DNA of 64,000 nt from Aequorivita lipolytica (GTDB lineage: Bacteria; Bacteroidota; Bacteroidia; Flavobacteriales; Flavobacteriaceae). The stretch covers positions 1-64,000 of the forward strand of contig NZ_VORU01000010.1 of assembly GCF_007997135.1 (NCBI RefSeq), in the 5' to 3' direction. Position numbers and translations under genes: made by a program. How positions within the stretch are numbered: position 1 is the first letter of the stretch; each line of letters starts with the position of its first letter. Below, in pieces: positions 12,223 to 61,780 of this stretch. The notes under the pieces were generated by a model that was given only the letters and a program-made list of their open reading frames with translations, was not told the DNA's origin and made no database searches.

Positions 12223-12267
12223 CCACGAATTCACGAATGTTTTAAATAATTATTCGTGAATTCGCGG
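12223..12267. repeat. CCACGAAT-type inverted repeat, copy 1
   Basis: CCACGAATTCACGAAT (12223-12238) faces ATTCGTGAATTCGCGG (12252-12267), with a 13-nt loop. It lies between convergent genes, just after yegP, and probably works as a terminator. It is one of five similar elements in this window (others at 27846, 42135, 43388 and 61624). Confidence 0.75.
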
Positions 12268-12451
12268 CTTATTTTATAATACTATTTATATTTTTTAAGA
12301 ATTTCCAAAAACTTCCCGTGCATCCCATCCGTATAATCTAAATGGGTTACAATTCGTGAATTCGCGGCTCATTTTATAATACTATTTATATTTTTTAAGA
12401 ATTTCCAAAAACTTCCCGTGCATCCCATCCGTATAATCTAAATGGGTTACA
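12252..12451. repeat. 100-bp tandem duplication covering the 3' end of the threonine aldolase gene
   Basis: Positions 12252-12351 and 12352-12451 are the same 100 bp with one difference (T at 12270, C at 12370). The second copy contains the true last codons and stop of the threonine aldolase gene; the first repeats about 23 codons of it as a dead fragment plus its stop. Each unit starts with ATTCGTGAATTCGCGGC, the right arm of the dispersed repeat at 12223-12267. Confidence 0.95.
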
Positions 12452-13404
12452 ATTCGTAATTTCCCCTGCCCCATACTGCTAATTTTAATGTTTTTCTGAA
12501 GCAAATCATCCATAAATTTTTCTTCGGAAATGTGTTCAGAAAGATAAAAAATTACAATATTGGTTTCTGTGGGCTCAACCTTTTTTATATAGGATTGTTT
12601 CGAAAGCAATTCCGAAATTTCCGAAGCTTTTTTATGGTCATCAGCCAAGCGATCTAAATGATTATCCAAAGCATAAATACCCGCAGCAGCCATAAAACCT
12701 ATTTGCCGCATTCCGCCACCCAATACTTTCCGGGTACGCATTGCTTTTTTCATAATTTCACTTTTCCCCAGTAAAACGCTTCCCATGGGCGTGCCCAAAC
12801 CTTTGCTCAAACAAACCGAAATAGTATCGAAAACTTTTCCATAATCTTTAGGATCTTCCTTTTTTGCCACAAGTGCATTCCAAATTCGCGCACCATCTAA
12901 ATGCAACCCTAAATTATGATTATTGCAAACTCTGCGTATTTTTTCTATTTCAGAAAAATCATAACACGCTCCACCGCCTTTGTTTGTTGTATTTTCTAAA
13001 CACACCAAACTTGTAAGCGGACTGTGATAAAAATCTGGCGGATTTATGTTTTCTTCAACTTGCGCAGCGGTAATCATTCCGCGATTGCCATCAATCAATT
13101 TGCAGGAAACCCCGCTATTAAAGGATACGCCGCCGCCTTCGTAATTATAAACGTGCGCCCATTTATCGGCTATTAACTGTTCTCCAGGTTGGGTGTGCAT
13201 TTTTATAGCCGCTTGGTTTGCCATACTTCCCGTTGGGAAAAAAAGTGCAGCCTCCATCCCGAACATTGCTGCAAGTTTTAGCTCTAACTTATTGGCGGTT
13301 GGGTCTTCTTTATAGACATCATCACCTACTTCTGCATTCATAATTGCTTGCATCATTCCCTGTGTGGGTTTGGTAACGGTATCGCTTCTTAAATCTATTG
13401 TCAT
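12382..13404 (-). CDS. ltaE: Low-specificity L-threonine aldolase
   Basis: A 340-aa fold-type I PLP enzyme that splits L-threonine or L-allo-threonine to glycine and acetaldehyde. It begins with the family signature DLRSDTVTKPT, has the GDDVYKEDPT substrate region, LHLDGARIWNA (PLP-binding Asp), and CLSKGLGTPMGSVL with the Schiff-base lysine. The ATG at 13404 is chosen: it gives the canonical N-terminus and follows the upstream stop (13409) by 4 nt, implying translational coupling; the longer frame from 13434 would overlap that gene. The last codons and TAG stop are within the duplicated 100-bp unit but intact. Confidence 0.9.
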   Translation of the reverse strand: MTIDLRSDTVTKPTQGMMQAIMNAEVGDDVYKEDPTANKLELKLAAMFGMEAALFFPTGSMANQAAIKMHTQPGEQLIADKWAHVYNYEGGGVSFNSGVSCKLIDGNRGMITAAQVEENINPPDFYHSPLTSLVCLENTTNKGGGACYDFSEIEKIRRVCNNHNLGLHLDGARIWNALVAKKEDPKDYGKVFDTISVCLSKGLGTPMGSVLLGKSEIMKKAMRTRKVLGGGMRQIGFMAAAGIYALDNHLDRLADDHKKASEISELLSKQSYIKKVEPTETNIVIFYLSEHISEEKFMDDLLQKNIKISSMGQGKLRIVTHLDYTDGMHGKFLEILKKYK

Positions 13405-32511: not shown

Positions 32512-32521
32512 AAATAAGAGA

Positions 32522-32604
32522 AAAGAACAAAGAAGAAAGAAGAAAGAGAAAAATGTAAAGTCAAAATCTGGAAGATTGTCTTTTTTCTTTCTTCTTTGTT
32601 CTTT
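32522..32604. terminator. Long A/G-C/T hairpin after the regulator gene
   Basis: AAAGAACAAAGAAGAAAG (32522-32539) is perfectly complementary to 32587-32604. The purine-only arm and pyrimidine-only arm with a 47-nt loop end the regulator transcript; such hairpins also occur as dispersed repeats in the group. Confidence 0.6.
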
Positions 32605-32686
32605 CTTCTGAAAACGGCAAGTATTTATATCTTATAAACCTTACCTTTTGAAATATGAAAAATTTAAAAAAAGCTAACTTCGCACT

Positions 32687-55120: not shown

Positions 55121-55561
55121 ATGAAAGAAAAAACAATAGATTATATGTTGCGATCCACTTGGATGAACGTAACAAAAATGTACAATGAAGAAGCCGGAAA
55201 AAAAGGAAGTACAATGGCCACAGGCTTTGCGCTTATAAGTATTGATCCTGAAGAAGGAACACCTTCAACTGCGCTGGGACCCAAAATGGGAATGGAAGCC
55301 ACAAGCCTCTCGCGCACCTTGAAATCTATGGAACAAAAAGGTTTAATAGAGCGCAAACGTAATCCCGAAGACGGTCGTGGTGTGTTGATATATTTAACAC
55401 CTTTTGGAAAGGAAATGCGCGAGTTCTCAAAAGGCGTAGTGTTGGGATTTGACGAAGCAGTTCAAAAAAATGTTTCCGAGGAGGAATTGCACACATTTAG
55501 AAAAGTGGCAAACACGATCAATGAGTTGATTAATTCAAAAAAAATATACGAGTCAAATTAG
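55121..55561 (+). CDS. MarR family regulator of the fatty-acid degradation operon
   Basis: A 146-aa winged-helix regulator starting at ATG 55121 (MKEKTIDYMLRSTWMNVTKM). The HTH is GMEATSLSRTLKSMEQKGLI, followed by the wing RKRNPEDGRGVLIYLT. MarR proteins bind as dimers and release DNA on ligand binding; as the first gene before FadJ/FadA/acyl-CoA dehydrogenase, it probably senses an acyl-CoA or fatty acid. An upstream frame to 55052 runs through the promoter and is not used. Confidence 0.85.
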   Translation: MKEKTIDYMLRSTWMNVTKMYNEEAGKKGSTMATGFALISIDPEEGTPSTALGPKMGMEATSLSRTLKSMEQKGLIERKRNPEDGRGVLIYLTPFGKEMREFSKGVVLGFDEAVQKNVSEEELHTFRKVANTINELINSKKIYESN

Positions 55562-55613
55562 GAAATAGGGATTAGGAATTAGTAAGAAAATTGAAAATCA
55601 TAACTCTGAACTC

Positions 55614-55655
55614 ATAACCCATAACTCATAACTCATAACTCATAACTCATAACTA
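55614..55655. repeat. Heptanucleotide tandem repeat before fadJ
   Basis: ATAACTC is repeated four times (55621-55648) with degenerate copies on either side (ATAACCC 55614-55620; ATAACTA 55649-55655), ending 5 nt before the fadJ ATG at 55661. Related AACTC units precede it. Confidence 0.9.
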
Positions 55656-55660
55656 AAAAA

Positions 55661-58069
55661 ATGTCAAAAAGAAGAATTAACAAAGTAGCGGTAATCGGTT
55701 CCGGAATTATGGGAAGCGGTATTGCCTGCCATTTCGCTAACATCGGCGTGGAAGTGCTTTTGCTGGACATCGTTCCTCGCGAGCTCACCGATGACGAAAA
55801 GAAGAAAGGGCTTACACTTGAGGACAAAGTAGTTCGCAATAGAATTGTAAACACAGATTTGCAGAAAGCCATAAAAAGCAACCCTGCCCCGCTCTATCAC
55901 AAAGATTTTGCAAAACGAATTTCCACAGGGAACTTGGAAGACGATATTTCAAAAGTGAAAACTGCGGATTGGATTATTGAAGTAGTTGTAGAGCGTTTGG
56001 ACATTAAAAAACAGGTTTTCGAAAACCTTGATAAACACAGAAAACCGGGAACGCTTATTACTTCAAACACTTCCGGTATTCCTATCAAGTTTATGAGCGA
56101 AGGCCGCAGCGAAGATTTTCAAAAACATTTCTGCGGTACGCACTTTTTCAACCCGCCTCGTTATTTAAAACTTTTTGAAATCATTCCCGGGCCAAAAACT
56201 TCAACTGAAGTGCTGGATTTCTTGAATGGTTACGGTGAAAAATTCCTCGGAAAAACTTCCGTGGTTGCAAAAGATACACCTGCTTTTATAGGAAATAGAA
56301 TCGGGATTTTCGGCATTCAAAGCCTTTTCCACCAAGTGAAGGATATGGGTCTTACTGTTGAAGAGGTTGACAAACTTACTGGCCCAGTAATCGGTCGTCC
56401 AAAATCCGCAACCTTCAGAACCGTTGATGTTGTTGGTCTTGACACTTTGGTGCACGTTTCCAAAGGAATTTATGACAATGTTCCCGATGATGAGGAACAC
56501 GGTATTTTCCAAATCCCAGGATTCATCGATACTATGATGGAAAAAAAATGGTTGGGAAGCAAAAGTGGCCAAGGGTTTTACAAAAAAGTGAAGAATGATG
56601 ACGGCAGCAGTGAAATCCTTACCCTCGACCTTGATTCTTTGGAATACAGAAAAAGCAAAAAAGCCTCTTTTGACTCGTTGGAAAACACAAAATCTGTCGA
56701 TAAAGTTACCGACCGTTTTCCAATTCTTATTAAGGGAGAAGATAAAGCAGGCGAATTCTACCGAAAAAATTTCGGAGCAATGTTCGCTTACGTTTCAAAA
56801 AGAATTCCTGAAATAACAGATGAACTTTACAAGATTGATGACGCAATGAAAGCTGGTTTCGGCTGGGATAACGGACCCTTTGAAATTTGGGACGCGGTTG
56901 GAGTTAAAAAAGGAATTGAGTTAATAAAAGATTTAGGAAAAGAACCTGCCGCTTGGGTAAACGAAATGCTTGAAGCTGGTGTTGATTCTTTCTACACTAT
57001 AAAAGACGGAAACACCTATTATTACGATATTCCGCAGAAAAAACACGTAAAAGTTCCCGGACAGGATTCGTTTATTATTCTGGACAACATCCGCAAAACT
57101 TCAGAAGTTTTCAGAAATAACGGGGTTGTGGTTGAAGATTTAGGCGATGGAATTTTGAATGTAGAATTTATTAGTAAAATGAACTCTGTTGGCGGAGATG
57201 TTTTGGCTGGAATCAACAAAGCTATTGATATGGCCGAAAAAGATTACGACGGATTGGTAATTGCCAACAACGGTAAAAACTTTTCAGTAGGCGCCAATAT
57301 CGGAATGATTTTTATGATGGCCGTGGAGCAGGAATACGAAGAATTGAATGCCGCAGTTAAATATTTCCAAGATACTAGTATGCGTATACGCTACTCCTCC
57401 ATTCCCGTAGTGGTTGCACCGCATGGAATGACTTTGGGCGGCGGTTGTGAGTTTACTCTTCACGCAGACAGAGTAGTTGCTGCAGCTGAAAGTTATATCG
57501 GTTTGGTAGAATTCGGAGTTGGGGTTATTCCTGGCGGAGGCGGTTCCAAAGAAATGACACTTAGAGCAAGCGACACTTTCAAAAAAGACGACGTTGAGCT
57601 CAACAGATTGCAGGATTATTTCCTCACCATTGGAATGGCAAAGGTTTCAACCTCGGCCTATGAAGCTTACGATACCGGAATTCTTCAAAAAGGAAAGGAT
57701 ATTGTAATCGTAAACCAAAATAGACAGATTGCCGCAGCTAAAGAAGTAGCACGCTTTATGGCAGATCAGGGTTATACAAAACCAATTCAGAGAACAGATA
57801 TAAAAGTGCTTGGGAAGCAAGCATTGGGAATGTTCCTTGTGGGAACTGACCAAATGTACGCCGGAAATTACATCAGCGAGCACGACAAAAAAATCGCAAA
57901 TAAACTAGCCTACGTAATGGCTGGTGGAGATTTGAGCGAAGCAAGCTACGTGAGCGAGCAATATTTGCTCGACCTTGAAAGAGAAGCATTTTTGAGTTTG
58001 ACAGGAGAAAGAAAGACTTTGGAAAGACTTCAGCATATGATTCAGAAGGGGAAACCGCTAAGAAATTAG
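55661..58069 (+). CDS. fadJ: 3-hydroxyacyl-CoA dehydrogenase / enoyl-CoA hydratase
   Basis: An 802-aa bifunctional beta-oxidation enzyme in the order HAD first, ECH last (the reverse of E. coli FadB). The N-terminal NAD fold has KVAVIGSGIMGSGIACHFAN, then FCGTHFFNPPRYLKLFEIIP with the catalytic His region, and a second HAD C-terminal helical pair. The last third has crotonase motifs GMTLGGGCEFTLHADRVVAA and FGVGVIPGGGGSKEMTLRAS. This layout is typical of Bacteroidota. It is in one operon with the thiolase and acyl-CoA dehydrogenase; the reaction is enoyl-CoA to 3-oxoacyl-CoA. Confidence 0.92.
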   Translation: MSKRRINKVAVIGSGIMGSGIACHFANIGVEVLLLDIVPRELTDDEKKKGLTLEDKVVRNRIVNTDLQKAIKSNPAPLYHKDFAKRISTGNLEDDISKVKTADWIIEVVVERLDIKKQVFENLDKHRKPGTLITSNTSGIPIKFMSEGRSEDFQKHFCGTHFFNPPRYLKLFEIIPGPKTSTEVLDFLNGYGEKFLGKTSVVAKDTPAFIGNRIGIFGIQSLFHQVKDMGLTVEEVDKLTGPVIGRPKSATFRTVDVVGLDTLVHVSKGIYDNVPDDEEHGIFQIPGFIDTMMEKKWLGSKSGQGFYKKVKNDDGSSEILTLDLDSLEYRKSKKASFDSLENTKSVDKVTDRFPILIKGEDKAGEFYRKNFGAMFAYVSKRIPEITDELYKIDDAMKAGFGWDNGPFEIWDAVGVKKGIELIKDLGKEPAAWVNEMLEAGVDSFYTIKDGNTYYYDIPQKKHVKVPGQDSFIILDNIRKTSEVFRNNGVVVEDLGDGILNVEFISKMNSVGGDVLAGINKAIDMAEKDYDGLVIANNGKNFSVGANIGMIFMMAVEQEYEELNAAVKYFQDTSMRIRYSSIPVVVAPHGMTLGGGCEFTLHADRVVAAAESYIGLVEFGVGVIPGGGGSKEMTLRASDTFKKDDVELNRLQDYFLTIGMAKVSTSAYEAYDTGILQKGKDIVIVNQNRQIAAAKEVARFMADQGYTKPIQRTDIKVLGKQALGMFLVGTDQMYAGNYISEHDKKIANKLAYVMAGGDLSEASYVSEQYLLDLEREAFLSLTGERKTLERLQHMIQKGKPLRN

Positions 58070-58092
58070 ATTGTTAGATAATTAGACTCTTA

Positions 58093-58122
58093 GATTTTTA
58101 GAAATCGAATTATCTAAAAATC
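58093..58122. repeat. 10-bp inverted repeat between fadJ and fadA
   Basis: GATTTTTAGA (58093-58102) and TCTAAAAATC (58113-58122) form a hairpin amid repeated TTAGA/CTAAAA words in the 76-nt spacer. AT-rich and without a U-tract at its end, so it is probably not a strong terminator. Confidence 0.6.
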
Positions 58123-58145
58123 CAATAATCCAAAATACTAGAAAA

Positions 58146-59336
58146 ATGAAAACAGCATACATAGTAAAAGCATACAGAACCGCGGTGGGAAAAGCCCCTC
58201 GTGGAGTTTTTCGTTTCAAAAGACCTGATGAGTTGGCTGCGGAAACCATTAAATATATAATGAACGAATTGCCACAACTCGACAAGAAACGAATTGACGA
58301 CGTAATAGTTGGTAACGCAATGCCCGAAGCCGAACAAGGCTTAAATATGGGCCGATTGATTTCGCTGATGGGACTGGAAATAGTTGATATTCCTGGGATG
58401 ACTGTAAACAGATACTGCGCTTCCGGGCTTGAAACCATTGCCATCGCCACAGCAAAAATCCAAAATGGAATGGCAGATTGCATCATCGCCGGAGGTGCTG
58501 AAAGCATGAGCTACATTCCAATGGGCGGTTATAAACCTGTTCCAGATTATAAATTAGCGAAAGAAGGCCACGAAGATTATTATTGGAATATGGGGCTAAC
58601 GGCAGAAGCGGTAGCTAAAAAATATAACGTTTCCCGCGAGGATCAAGACGAGTTTGCTTACACAAGCCAGATGCGCGCTTTAAAAGCACAAGACGAAAAT
58701 CGTTTTCAGGATCAAATTGTTCCCATTGAAGTTGAACATATTTTTGTAAATGATGCTGGAAAAAAAGTTACCGAAAAATATACAGTCAATAAGGATGAAG
58801 GCCCAAGAAAAGGAACAACTATAGAAGCACTTTCCAAACTTCGTCCCGTTTTTGCAGAAGGTGGAAGCGTAACCGCAGGAAACTCTTCACAAATGAGTGA
58901 TGGGGCAGCTTTCGCTGTAATTATGAGTGAAGAAATGGTGAAAGAATTAAATCTTGAACCTATCGCGAGATTAGTAAGTTTTGCTGCAGTTGGGGTAGAT
59001 CCGAAAATTATGGGTATTGGCCCATTGTATGCAATCCCAAAAGCATTGAAGCAAGCTGGATTGAAGCAGGAACAAATGGAACTTATAGAATTGAATGAGG
59101 CTTTTGCGTCACAATCCTTAGCTGTAATCCGCGGACTTGGTTTAGATAAGGAAATTGTGAACGTAAACGGAGGCGCAATCGCGATGGGTCACCCATTGGG
59201 TTGTACAGGCACCAAACTTTCAGTCCAATTATTTGATGAAATGCGCAAACGAAACCTGCAAGGAAAGTACGGAATGGTAACGATGTGTGTTGGTACTGGA
59301 CAAGGTGCTGCTGGGGTTTATGAATTTTTGAAGTAG
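58146..59336 (+). CDS. fadA: Acetyl-CoA C-acyltransferase (thiolase)
   Basis: A 396-aa thiolase that cleaves 3-oxoacyl-CoA to acetyl-CoA and a shortened acyl-CoA. The acylated Cys is in TVNRYCASGLETIAIA, the His in NVNGGAIAMGHPLGCTGTK, and the second Cys in VTMCVGTGQGAAGVYEF. The length and start (MKTAYIVKAYRTAVGKAPRG) are standard. The next gene in the operon is the four-helix cassette, then acyl-CoA dehydrogenase. Confidence 0.93.
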   Translation: MKTAYIVKAYRTAVGKAPRGVFRFKRPDELAAETIKYIMNELPQLDKKRIDDVIVGNAMPEAEQGLNMGRLISLMGLEIVDIPGMTVNRYCASGLETIAIATAKIQNGMADCIIAGGAESMSYIPMGGYKPVPDYKLAKEGHEDYYWNMGLTAEAVAKKYNVSREDQDEFAYTSQMRALKAQDENRFQDQIVPIEVEHIFVNDAGKKVTEKYTVNKDEGPRKGTTIEALSKLRPVFAEGGSVTAGNSSQMSDGAAFAVIMSEEMVKELNLEPIARLVSFAAVGVDPKIMGIGPLYAIPKALKQAGLKQEQMELIELNEAFASQSLAVIRGLGLDKEIVNVNGGAIAMGHPLGCTGTKLSVQLFDEMRKRNLQGKYGMVTMCVGTGQGAAGVYEFLK

Positions 59337-59348
59337 AAGAAAGAGCCA

Positions 59349-59764
59349 AGATTCAAGAGCCAAGATTGAAGACTAAAGAAGAGTGTATGCATAATTTTAA
59401 AAAGCTGAAAATATGGATGGAGAGTATGAGCCTGGTTTCAAATACCTATAAAATTACTCGAGCTTTTCCAGATTTTGAAAAATTTGGATTGGTTTCACAG
59501 ATGAATAGGTGTGCTGTTTCAATTCCTTCAAATATAGCAGAGGGCTCAAGTAAAAGTTCTAATAAACATTTCAAACAATATTTGGAAATAGCTTTGGGAT
59601 CGTCTTTCGAATTAGAAACACAATTAATTATTGCATTTAATGAATTGTATATTTCGGAAGAAAAATTTAAATATTTAGAAGAAAAAATAAAACAAATTCA
59701 AAAAATGATTTCAGGATTCCAATCTAGACTTACTTAAAAGTCTTGACTCTTGGCTCTTGATTCT
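59349..59764 (+). repeat. 26-bp imperfect inverted repeats flanking the four-helix-bundle gene
   Basis: The left arm AGATTCAAGAGCCAAGATTG... (59349-59374) is complementary at about 22 of 26 positions to 59739-59764 (AGTCTTGACTCTTGGCTCTT...). The arms enclose the coding region exactly, and AAGAGCCAAGATT recurs just outside the left arm (from 59340). In RNA the cassette would form a long stem with the gene in its loop. Confidence 0.85.
59387..59737 (+). CDS. Four-helix-bundle protein (23S rRNA IVS / S23 type)
   Basis: A 116-aa protein of the S23/IVP four-helix-bundle family first seen in intervening sequences of 23S rRNA genes. The ATG at 59387 starts MHNFKKLKIWMESMSLVSNT; the signature FGLVSQMNRCAVSIPSNIAE follows, then FKQYLEIALGSSFELETQL. 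The related bAvd protein of diversity-generating retroelements has the same fold and forms pentamers. No reverse transcriptase or rRNA gene is nearby; the gene sits between thiolase and acyl-CoA dehydrogenase, flanked by inverted repeats. Its function here is unknown. Confidence 0.88.
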   Translation: MHNFKKLKIWMESMSLVSNTYKITRAFPDFEKFGLVSQMNRCAVSIPSNIAEGSSKSSNKHFKQYLEIALGSSFELETQLIIAFNELYISEEKFKYLEEKIKQIQKMISGFQSRLT

Positions 59765-59778
59765 AAAAATCTATAAAT

Positions 59779-61590
59779 ATGAATATAACAAACAATGTTG
59801 ATAAAGAACTCCTTCGTGGCGGCCAATTCTTGGTAAAAGAAACAAAAGCAGAAGACGTTTTCACTCCAGAAGATTTTTCTGAAGAGCAAAAAATGATGCG
59901 CGATTCCGTAAAGGAATTTGTAGATCGTGAAATCTGGCCACTTAAGGAACGCTTTGAGCACAAAGATTACGCGCTTACCGAAGAAATTATGCGGAAAGCT
60001 GGTGAACTTGGCTTGCTGGGTGTTTCAGTTCCCGAGGAATATGGAGGACTCGGAATGGGCTTTGTAACTACAATGCTGGTTTGCGATTACATTTCAGGTG
60101 CAACAGGCTCTGTAGCTACAGCTTTTGGCGCACATACCGGGATTGGAACTTTACCAATCACGCTTTATGGTACAGAGGAGCTAAAGAAAAAGTATGTTCC
60201 AAAACTTGCCACTGGGGAATGGTTTGGAGCCTATGCTCTAACTGAACCTGGCGCTGGTAGTGATGCTAACAGTGGAAAAACTAAAGCGGTACTTTCTGAA
60301 GACGGTAAATACTACGCAATTAGCGGACAAAAAATGTGGATATCAAACGCAGGTTTCTGCAACACATTTATAGTTTTCGCAAGAATTGAAGACGATAAAT
60401 ACATTACAGGATTTATTGTTGAAAATGACCCCGAAAACGGCATTTCAATGGGCGAGGAAGAGAAGAAATTAGGTATCCACTCCTCCTCTACCCGTCAGAT
60501 ATTCTTTAACGAAACCAAAGTTCCAGTTGAAAATATGTTGGGCGAGCGTGGCGAAGGTTTTAAAATTGCAATGAACGCTTTAAACGTTGGAAGAATAAAA
60601 CTTGCAGCGGCCAGTCTTGACGCACAACGTAGAATAATTTCAAACGCCGTTCAATATGCAAATGACCGCATCCAATTTGAAGTTCCAATCTCTTCATTTG
60701 GCGCCATAAAATTGAAAATTGCTGAAATGGCCACCAATGCTTATGTAGGAGAAAGTGCAAGTTATCGCGGAGCGAAAGATATTGAAGATAGAATTGCACT
60801 TAGGTTAGAAGCTGGAAACAGCCATCCAGAAGCCGAACTGAAAGGTGTTGAAGAATATGCTATTGAGTGCTCTATCTTAAAAGTAGCTGTTTCTGAAGAC
60901 GTTCAAAACTGTGCTGACGAAGGAATCCAGATTTATGGCGGAATGGGCTATAGTGCCGACACGCCGATGGAATCTGCTTGGCGTGATGCTCGAATCGCCC
61001 GAATTTACGAAGGTACGAACGAAATAAACCGAATGTTGGCCGTTGGAATGTTGGTGAAGAAAGCAATGAAAGGACACGTAGATCTATTGAATCCAGCGCA
61101 AGCTGTTGCTTCAGAATTGATGGGAATCCCTTCTTTTGAAACACCAGATTATTCCGAATTGCTTTCCGAAGAAAAAGCAATGATTGGTAAACTGAAAAAA
61201 GTATTTTTAATGGTTGCAGGAAGCGCAGTTCAAAAGTACGGTACCGAACTGGAAGAACACCAGCAAACGTTATTAGCAGCAGCAGATATCTTAATTGAAA
61301 TCTATATGGCTGAAAGCGGAATTTTACGTACCGAAAAGAACGTAAAACGTTTCGGTGAAGACACTCAAAAAGAACAAATTGCAATGTCTCAACTTTACCT
61401 TTATCACGCTGTTGATATTATTACCGTCAAAGCAAAAGAAGCCATTCTTTCGTTCTCTGAGGGTGACGAACAACGCGCAATGTTGATGGGTCTTAAACGT
61501 TTCACAAAATATCAAAATATGCCGAATATTGGTGAATTGAGAAAAACAATCGCGCATAAAGTTATTGCTGAAAATAATTATCCTTTTTAG
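59779..61590 (+). CDS. Acyl-CoA dehydrogenase
   Basis: A 603-aa FAD flavoenzyme for the first step of beta-oxidation. Core motifs are VPEEYGGLGMGFVTTMLVCD, AYALTEPGAGSDANSGKTKA (FAD/substrate), the ISNAGF loop, and ARIARIYEGTNEINRMLAVG, which carries the EGTNEI stretch next to the catalytic-base region. It is larger than the about 380-aa classical enzymes, with a 150-200-residue C-terminal helical extension as in the FadE12/ACAD9-like types common in Bacteroidota. It is last in the MarR-fadJ-fadA operon and ends in a dispersed-repeat terminator. Confidence 0.92.
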   Translation: MNITNNVDKELLRGGQFLVKETKAEDVFTPEDFSEEQKMMRDSVKEFVDREIWPLKERFEHKDYALTEEIMRKAGELGLLGVSVPEEYGGLGMGFVTTMLVCDYISGATGSVATAFGAHTGIGTLPITLYGTEELKKKYVPKLATGEWFGAYALTEPGAGSDANSGKTKAVLSEDGKYYAISGQKMWISNAGFCNTFIVFARIEDDKYITGFIVENDPENGISMGEEEKKLGIHSSSTRQIFFNETKVPVENMLGERGEGFKIAMNALNVGRIKLAAASLDAQRRIISNAVQYANDRIQFEVPISSFGAIKLKIAEMATNAYVGESASYRGAKDIEDRIALRLEAGNSHPEAELKGVEEYAIECSILKVAVSEDVQNCADEGIQIYGGMGYSADTPMESAWRDARIARIYEGTNEINRMLAVGMLVKKAMKGHVDLLNPAQAVASELMGIPSFETPDYSELLSEEKAMIGKLKKVFLMVAGSAVQKYGTELEEHQQTLLAAADILIEIYMAESGILRTEKNVKRFGEDTQKEQIAMSQLYLYHAVDIITVKAKEAILSFSEGDEQRAMLMGLKRFTKYQNMPNIGELRKTIAHKVIAENNYPF

Positions 61591-61623: not shown

Positions 61624-61668
61624 CCACGAATACACGAATGATTAATAAAATCAATTGTGTATTCGTGG
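61624..61668 (+). terminator. CCACGAAT-type inverted repeat, copy 5, acting as terminator
   Basis: CCACGAATACAC (from 61624) pairs with GTGTATTCGTGG (61657-61668) and is followed by TTTTTTTTA. It ends the beta-oxidation operon. Confidence 0.85.
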
Positions 61669-61682
61669 TTTTTTTTACACTA

Positions 61683-61780
61683 AGGTTTCCAAAAAAATAA
61701 AAATTACATTCGTGTATTCGTGGCCTTTTATCCGCTTAGGTTTTCCAAAAAAATAAAAATTACATTAGTGTATTCGTGGC
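61683..61780. repeat. Tandem 56-bp unit carrying half CCACGAAT repeats
   Basis: AGGTTT(T)CC followed by a 34-bp block occurs at 61683-61724 and 61738-61780; the 34-bp part (61691-61724 and 61747-61780) differs at one base. Each ends in GTGTATTCGTGGC, the right half of the dispersed repeat. Confidence 0.85.

Follow-up and report, generated by a model that had tools for sequence, protein, structure and literature searches.

A four-helix-bundle gene enclosed by inverted heptamer repeats in a beta-oxidation operon of Aequorivita lipolytica: a probable copy of a mobile, intervening-sequence-like hairpin element

The stretch of DNA considered here (hereafter, the window) comprises 64,000 nucleotides of Aequorivita lipolytica (assembly GCF_007997135.1, contig NZ_VORU01000010.1, positions 1 to 64,000, forward strand). 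Within it, the gap between the thiolase (fadA) and acyl-CoA dehydrogenase genes of a beta-oxidation operon is filled, from stop codon to start codon, by a gene for a four-helix-bundle protein together with the inverted repeats, or arms, that enclose it (Table 1). This gene starts with ATG and is the sole open reading frame (ORF) of the cassette. Its 116-residue product is a full-domain member of the four helix bundle family, matching PF05635 (133.5 bits against a cut-off of 33.8; 4e-39) and TIGR02436 (118.7 bits against a cut-off of 24; 1e-34); solved structures related to it include PDB 2GSC (1e-35) and 2RLD. An inverted-repeat search recovered 26-nt arms at 59349-59374 and 59739-59764, 88% complementary and 364 nt apart. 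These results bear out the original prediction, made from the sequence of the window, of an S23-type gene set between 26-bp inverted repeats and flanked by two beta-oxidation genes. The same search returned a second register of the arms (59334-59358/59741-59765), a consequence of tandem repetition within the 5′ arm, where AAGAGCCAAGATTC occurs twice at 59341-59368; both arms were assigned a period of 7/14 by Tandem Repeats Finder. The arms thus lie where they had been placed, except that the 5′ arm begins near 59341 rather than at 59349, which makes the cassette slightly longer than first described. The thiolase gene is preceded in the operon by a gene for a bifunctional 3-hydroxyacyl-CoA dehydrogenase/enoyl-CoA hydratase (HADH; 55661-58069).

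Table 1. Features of the cassette, its host genes, and gene-less hairpins in the window
Feature	Position	Strand	Basis and remarks
5′ arm	59341..59374	+	Period-7/14 array (AAGAGCCAAGATTC...), G-rich; starts 4 nt past the fadA stop
Four-helix-bundle (23S rRNA intervening-sequence protein (IVP)/S23-type) gene, 116 aa	59387..59737	+	PF05635, TIGR02436, 2GSC/2RLD
3′ arm	59739..59764	+	C-rich; repeats the 5′ arm in inverted orientation; 14 nt separate its end from the acyl-CoA dehydrogenase start codon
Upstream host gene, thiolase (fadA)	58146..59336	+	PF00108/PF02803; stop codon TAG at 59334-59336
Downstream host gene, acyl-CoA dehydrogenase	59779..61590	+	PF02771/PF00441
Gene-less hairpin, 7/8-bp repeats (TTAGATTN / AATCCAAT)	58064..58135	+	Preceding spacer (HADH–fadA) of the beta-oxidation operon; holds a four-helix-bundle cassette in relatives
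Gene-less heptamer hairpin (AAAGAAG ... TCTTTCT)	32516..32609	+	Starts 4 nt past the stop of a codirectional gene

Protein searches of the 3.3-Mb A. lipolytica genome returned 17 matches to the four-helix-bundle protein, of which about 15 are convincing, and 21 with the Pfam profile; all 28 genomes of the genus carry such genes. Most copies in A. lipolytica are flanked by arrays of 7-bp period, usually inverted between the two sides, with heptamers that differ from copy to copy (CAAGAGC, TTGTTGG, AAGCCTA, TGAGCTN, TTGCAGG, AGTTNTC, and others). Further flanked copies in the genome had been anticipated and are indeed numerous, but the CAAGAGCCAAG arms by which they were to be recognized are not common to them, as each copy has a heptamer of its own; what the copies share is the inverted 7-bp architecture rather than an arm sequence. 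The heptamer of the CAAGAGCCAAG arms does recur in gene-less arrays of the same genome and, in relatives, beside related proteins. Four of the A. lipolytica cassettes (L006, L008, L016, and C14:371055) lie within about 8 kb of one another at C14:370-378 kb, a region that holds phenylacetate (paa) genes, as named by eye.

This architecture was measured in 119 loci, 44 from the genus and 75 from other genera and phyla (the phylum-wide loci), with flanks paired across loci serving as the null for inverted arms. Among the genus loci, identity at a lag of 7 nt reached 0.41 upstream and 0.39 downstream, compared with about 0.29 at most other lags, and identity also peaked at lags of 14 and 21 and, less strongly, at 8; the phylum-wide loci gave lag-7 values of 0.357/0.358 against about 0.285. 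Inverted similarity between the two flanks of the same gene had a median of 13.5 in the genus loci, compared with 7 across genes (p = 2e-17), and of 13 against 7 in the phylum-wide loci (p = 3e-32). At loci with clear arms, the median distance from the upstream stop codon to the 5′ arm is 2 nt (n = 86), and that from the end of the 3′ arm to the following start codon is 10 nt (n = 71). Both neighbors are codirectional with the four-helix-bundle gene at 106 of 111 loci, whereas the corresponding share among ordinary genes, taken from 400 kb of the A. lipolytica genome, is 62% (p = 2e-16). The 5′ arms are G-rich and C-poor (G 0.236, C 0.089), with a purine fraction above 0.6 in 43 of 92 cases and below 0.4 in only 6.

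Arm sequence is coupled to protein sequence. Among 122 pairs of loci whose flanking genes are unrelated and whose proteins are at least 60% identical, arm similarity averaged 13.35, compared with 8.15 (sd 0.24) under permutation, and none of 200 permutations reached the observed value; the phylum-wide scan loci alone gave 12.84 against 8.11, again with 0 of 200 permutations. Because some loci enter more than one pair, the pairs lack independence, and the permutation result is to be read as strong rather than as an exact probability. Arms of the GAGAATA type are found in Chryseobacterium (L170), Aquimarina (L193), Flavobacterium soyangense (L218), and one congener of A. lipolytica; TGTATAA-type arms are found at loci L156, L157, and L163. 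That each protein clade keeps its own heptamer suggests that the four-helix-bundle protein probably recognizes its cognate heptamer repeats.

Occupancy of a given operon gap varies among close relatives. The fadA–acyl-CoA dehydrogenase spacer (spacer A) was compared in A. lipolytica and 26 congeners; the empty sites expected under the original prediction are present in five of these genomes, in which the spacer measures 18-23 bp. A gene-less hairpin or remnant occupies the spacer in several other congeners, and the remaining spacers hold at least five kinds of four-helix-bundle cassette, each with its own arms. The HADH–fadA spacer (spacer B) shows the same alternation of states. Different four-helix-bundle subfamilies are found at one site when mapped on a tree of the operon proteins, which is used here descriptively, given that it may be distorted by interspecies recombination of the operon. 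A second operon presents a similar picture: among 28 genomes, the paaA–paaB spacer is essentially absent (1 nt) in three, contains gene-less GTGAGAC hairpins in about six and gene-less GGACNTAA hairpins in seven, and in eight contains a four-helix-bundle gene, frameshifted in one case, between AGTATTG arms. The heptamer families of the paaA–paaB spacers are also present in the beta-oxidation spacers. Other occupants were seen as well: in one genome (G005) small ORFs, by eye of DUF4160/DUF2442 type, replace the cassette in the paaA–paaB spacer (L300, 593 bp), and the HADH–fadA spacer of G006 and G023 (L129, L140) contains a palindrome of another type (CCCCTCCC...GGGGAGG / CTCCCCC...GGGGG).

Comparisons between congeners indicate that whole cassettes have been transferred horizontally. 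Spacer A is 96.3% identical over 540 bp between genomes G008 and G027, with flanks at 81.5 and 84.0%, and 96.3% identical between G007 and G010, compared with 85-87% in the flanks; spacer B is 96.4% identical in the pairs G007/G010 and G010/G013, compared with 81-84% in the flanks. Identity shifts sharply at the spacer edges in these near-identical pairs, and synonymous divergence (dS) is 0.08-0.18 for the four-helix-bundle gene, as compared with 1.0-1.5 for fadA. G009 and G027, by contrast, are 92-93% identical in the flanks, yet contain different cassettes in spacer A (52%). Within G027, homology between the spacer A and spacer B cassettes extends from one arm to the other, and the outer flanks of the two are unrelated. 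The four-helix-bundle genes are under purifying selection, with ratios of nonsynonymous to synonymous divergence (dN/dS) of 0.04-0.22. Some cassettes are thus far more alike than the genes that flank them, in support of the earlier suggestion of a mobile, intervening sequence (IVS)-like unit; these data support a unit in which arms and gene would move together, and speak to that unit rather than to its mechanism.

Heptamer repeats of the same families also occur in the absence of a gene. Exact CAAGAGCCAAGA sites number 31 in the A. lipolytica genome, compared with 7 for the reversed control, and include long one-armed arrays, some of which lie directly past stop codons (C6, C7, C45). The arms of the gene-less heptamer hairpin in the window (Table 1) match those of an A. 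lipolytica cassette (L002, at C1:72892). A 400-kb sample contains 23 intergenic arrays with a period of 7, compared with 0-6 for each remaining period between 4 and 13. In 400 kb of contig C14, significant inverted repeats of mixed periods (6, 7, and 8) were found in 11 of 121 codirectional gaps, as compared with 0 of 30 divergent gaps; a stricter filter for gene-less heptamer hairpins retained two. Gene-less hairpins and solo arrays of the same heptamer families have the appearance of cassette copies that have decayed or are non-autonomous. Three cassettes with GAGACTT arms (L102, L105, and L107) have an extra gene-less hairpin inside the upstream arm region, for three arms in total.

We consider it likely that the cassette between fadA and the acyl-CoA dehydrogenase gene represents a mobile, IVS-like hairpin element of which copies are widespread in protein operons. 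Such an element would consist of a 5′ heptamer-repeat arm, a four-helix-bundle gene, and an inverted 3′ heptamer-repeat arm, and would insert in sense into the gap between operon genes, directly past a stop codon and ahead of the ribosome-binding region that follows; in this position, it would be transcribed from the host promoter with neither neighbor disturbed. The arms would fold back on each other in the transcript (or in single-stranded DNA), as do those of rRNA intervening sequences with the same gene type, and the element may move as hairpin RNA or single-stranded DNA through a host activity. The architecture, site, orientation, presence/absence pattern, whole-cassette horizontal transfer, arm–protein coupling, and purifying selection are directly supported by the comparisons given above. 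A broader reading, which we find plausible while leaning slightly against it, is that these cassettes represent a large undescribed class of transposase-less mobile elements, in which four-helix-bundle proteins would recognize and propagate their own heptamer-repeat hairpins between operon cistrons across Bacteroidota, with gene-less hairpins as non-autonomous satellites. If true, rRNA intervening sequences would be the special case of an element that landed in an rRNA helix, and the G-rich 5′ arms, like the strictly sense orientation, would be signs of a transcript-templated step at the RNA level.

To our knowledge, no function has been established for IVS elements or for the four-helix-bundle protein they encode, although both were recognized three decades ago. 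In the 23S rRNA of Coxiella burnetii, the IVS carries an S23p ORF in a 28-bp stem that is cut by RNase III in vitro, with tandem heptamers (GACAGAT) immediately before the ORF; this IVS is about 430 nt long, sporadic, and horizontally acquired, and its S23p is reported to be decaying (PMC4990558). The operon cassettes share with it the protein family, an S23p ORF within stem-forming terminal inverted repeats, a similar size, and a patchy presence with horizontal transfer; they share also the heptamers in the stem, on the 5′ side, a feature reported for Coxiella and not generally defining for IVS elements. However, the operon cassettes lie between protein-coding genes in mRNA rather than inside an rRNA helix, occur many times per genome with a different heptamer in each copy, and, unlike the decaying S23p of Coxiella, encode a protein under clear purifying selection; excision by RNase III without religation, which characterizes IVS elements, is a putative step for the operon cassettes. 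As location in rRNA is the defining feature of an IVS, "IVS-like" is used as a working term, and the cassette is classified as a variant rather than as a member.

Genes for IVP are also known from other contexts. According to the passages concerned, rRNA insertions of the candidate phyla radiation (CPR) contain IVP ORFs, with ORF-bearing and ORF-less insertions sharing sites (PMC11270868), and cas operons can contain an IVP gene, such as one that lies between cmr3 and cmr2, with the gene treated as functionally associated with Cas (PMC3936711). These cases resemble the operon cassettes in protein family and, respectively, in the alternation of ORF-bearing and ORF-less sites and in placement within an operon; heptamer arms, stop-to-start placement, and arm–protein coupling are undescribed in those passages (PMC11270868, PMC3936711). 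The pattern presented here could explain some of the scattered heptamer repeats, as well as the presence of IVP genes in unrelated operons such as cas loci. Current annotation labels the genes of the operon cassettes simply "four helix bundle protein."

Gene-bearing copies with flanking repeats, gene-less copies that share these repeats, and co-variation of repeat and protein are features of repetitive extragenic palindromic (REP) elements with their REP-associated tyrosine transposases (RAYT), and of miniature inverted-repeat transposable elements (MITE) with their transposases. The operon cassettes are similar in that gene-bearing and gene-less copies share repeats, and repeat and protein appear to co-vary; they differ in encoding a small four-helix bundle without a transposase domain, in their period-7 arrays, and in their sense insertion between operon genes. 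With no encoded transposase, the cassette does not qualify as an insertion sequence or RAYT element. Intergenic heptanucleotide repeats, such as TAACTGA arrays, have been described in Beggiatoaceae, Cyanobacteria, and Bacteroidetes, and share with the cassettes the 7-nt unit, the intergenic location, and a patchy distribution suggesting horizontal transfer without a known mechanism (PMC4679880). However, TAACTGA arrays consist of a single heptamer, mostly in direct repeats upstream of start codons and with no four-helix-bundle gene reported (PMC4679880), whereas the operon cassettes have many heptamers, in inverted pairs that enclose a gene. No description of the combined pattern was found in the open-licence literature; subscription papers were outside this scope, so no claim of priority is made. 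The cassette most likely belongs to a family of mobile, IVS-like hairpin cassettes that spans the phylum. The same gene type recurs across numerous protein operons in an architecture that can be measured (inverted arms of period 7, placement from stop to start codon, and arm–protein specificity), and the binding target of the protein and its possible role in element movement become directly testable questions.

Several observations weigh against a mobile element. The 99th percentile of the inverted-repeat null is not exceeded by 19 of the 44 genus loci and 35 of the 75 phylum-wide loci; with about half of loci individually above this threshold, the arms are not intact in every copy. The cassette is without a transposase, nuclease, or reverse transcriptase, and a reverse transcriptase domain (RVT_1) was not found in the A. 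lipolytica genome and is present in only 9 of the 28 genomes of the genus. No target-site duplication was recognized by eye in comparison with the 18-23 bp empty sites, a comparison short of a systematic search. Additionally, some of the same-spacer transfers could be the result of homologous recombination between operons. Mismatches within the arms favor A-C over G-U (134 vs. 88, p = 0.002), where composition predicts near parity; this excess gives no sign of selection on RNA pairing itself and argues against it, as such selection should produce the opposite bias, toward G-U wobble.

Those mismatches bear also on the mRNA processing function suggested for the cassette in the original prediction, in which RNase III would cut the stem and part the fadA message from that of the acyl-CoA dehydrogenase, by analogy with rRNA IVS elements. 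The arms pair when the spacer is folded as RNA (z = −3.35 against shuffles), an RNase III gene is present in the A. lipolytica genome, and a stem of similar size around the same gene type is cut by RNase III in Coxiella 23S rRNA (PMC4990558). However, the arms show no G-U preference, and the empty spacer in several congeners indicates that cutting is not required for operon function. We therefore regard a processing device as an unlikely account of the cassette; mRNA cutting would be compatible with a mobile hairpin element, as a side effect.

Less probable still is an origin of the heptamer hairpins in the host, by 7-nt polymerase slippage or as attenuators or mRNA stabilizers, into which four-helix-bundle genes would insert or become trapped. 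Among long simple repeats, those with a heptanucleotide unit are the most frequent in many prokaryotes, with slippage as a proposed cause (Mrazek et al. 2007, as relayed in a passage of PMC4679880), and gene-less hairpins and solo arrays do occur; however, the heptamer follows the protein clade across unrelated loci, and the homology of the two G027 cassettes spans arms and gene together. Improbable to much the same degree, and if anything slightly more so, is an ordinary operon gene with vertical inheritance and loss, for which recombination of operons between species would supply the variety at each site and slippage would alter the arms. Purifying selection is as expected for such a gene, as are the persistence of orthologous cassettes at one site in several species and the presence of family members in the same beta-oxidation spacers of other genera. 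This account is already strained by near-identical cassettes, with sharp edges, in flanks as diverged as the species themselves, by the occupation of one site by different subfamilies, by arms shared among related proteins at unrelated loci, and by empty sites in relatives. Finally, an accessory factor like Avd of a diversity-generating retroelement (DGR), or of another reverse transcriptase system acting in trans, is very improbable: the folds are homologous (PMC10053308) and a weak, below-cut-off similarity to bAvd was recorded (7e-06), with 27.5 bits against a cut-off of 80 for the Avd model, but RVT_1 has the restricted distribution noted above while all 28 genomes carry four-helix-bundle genes, and for A. 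lipolytica the proposal is effectively refuted, barring a very divergent reverse transcriptase that was missed.

The window contains other repeats as well. The spacer before the HADH gene (55556-55654) is filled by two heptamer arrays, AATTAGG and TCATAAC, the latter in eight copies, which are not clear inverted copies of one another. Tandem repeats of 100 bp and 56 bp at 12252-12495 and 61657-61780, respectively, have periods unrelated to the heptamers.
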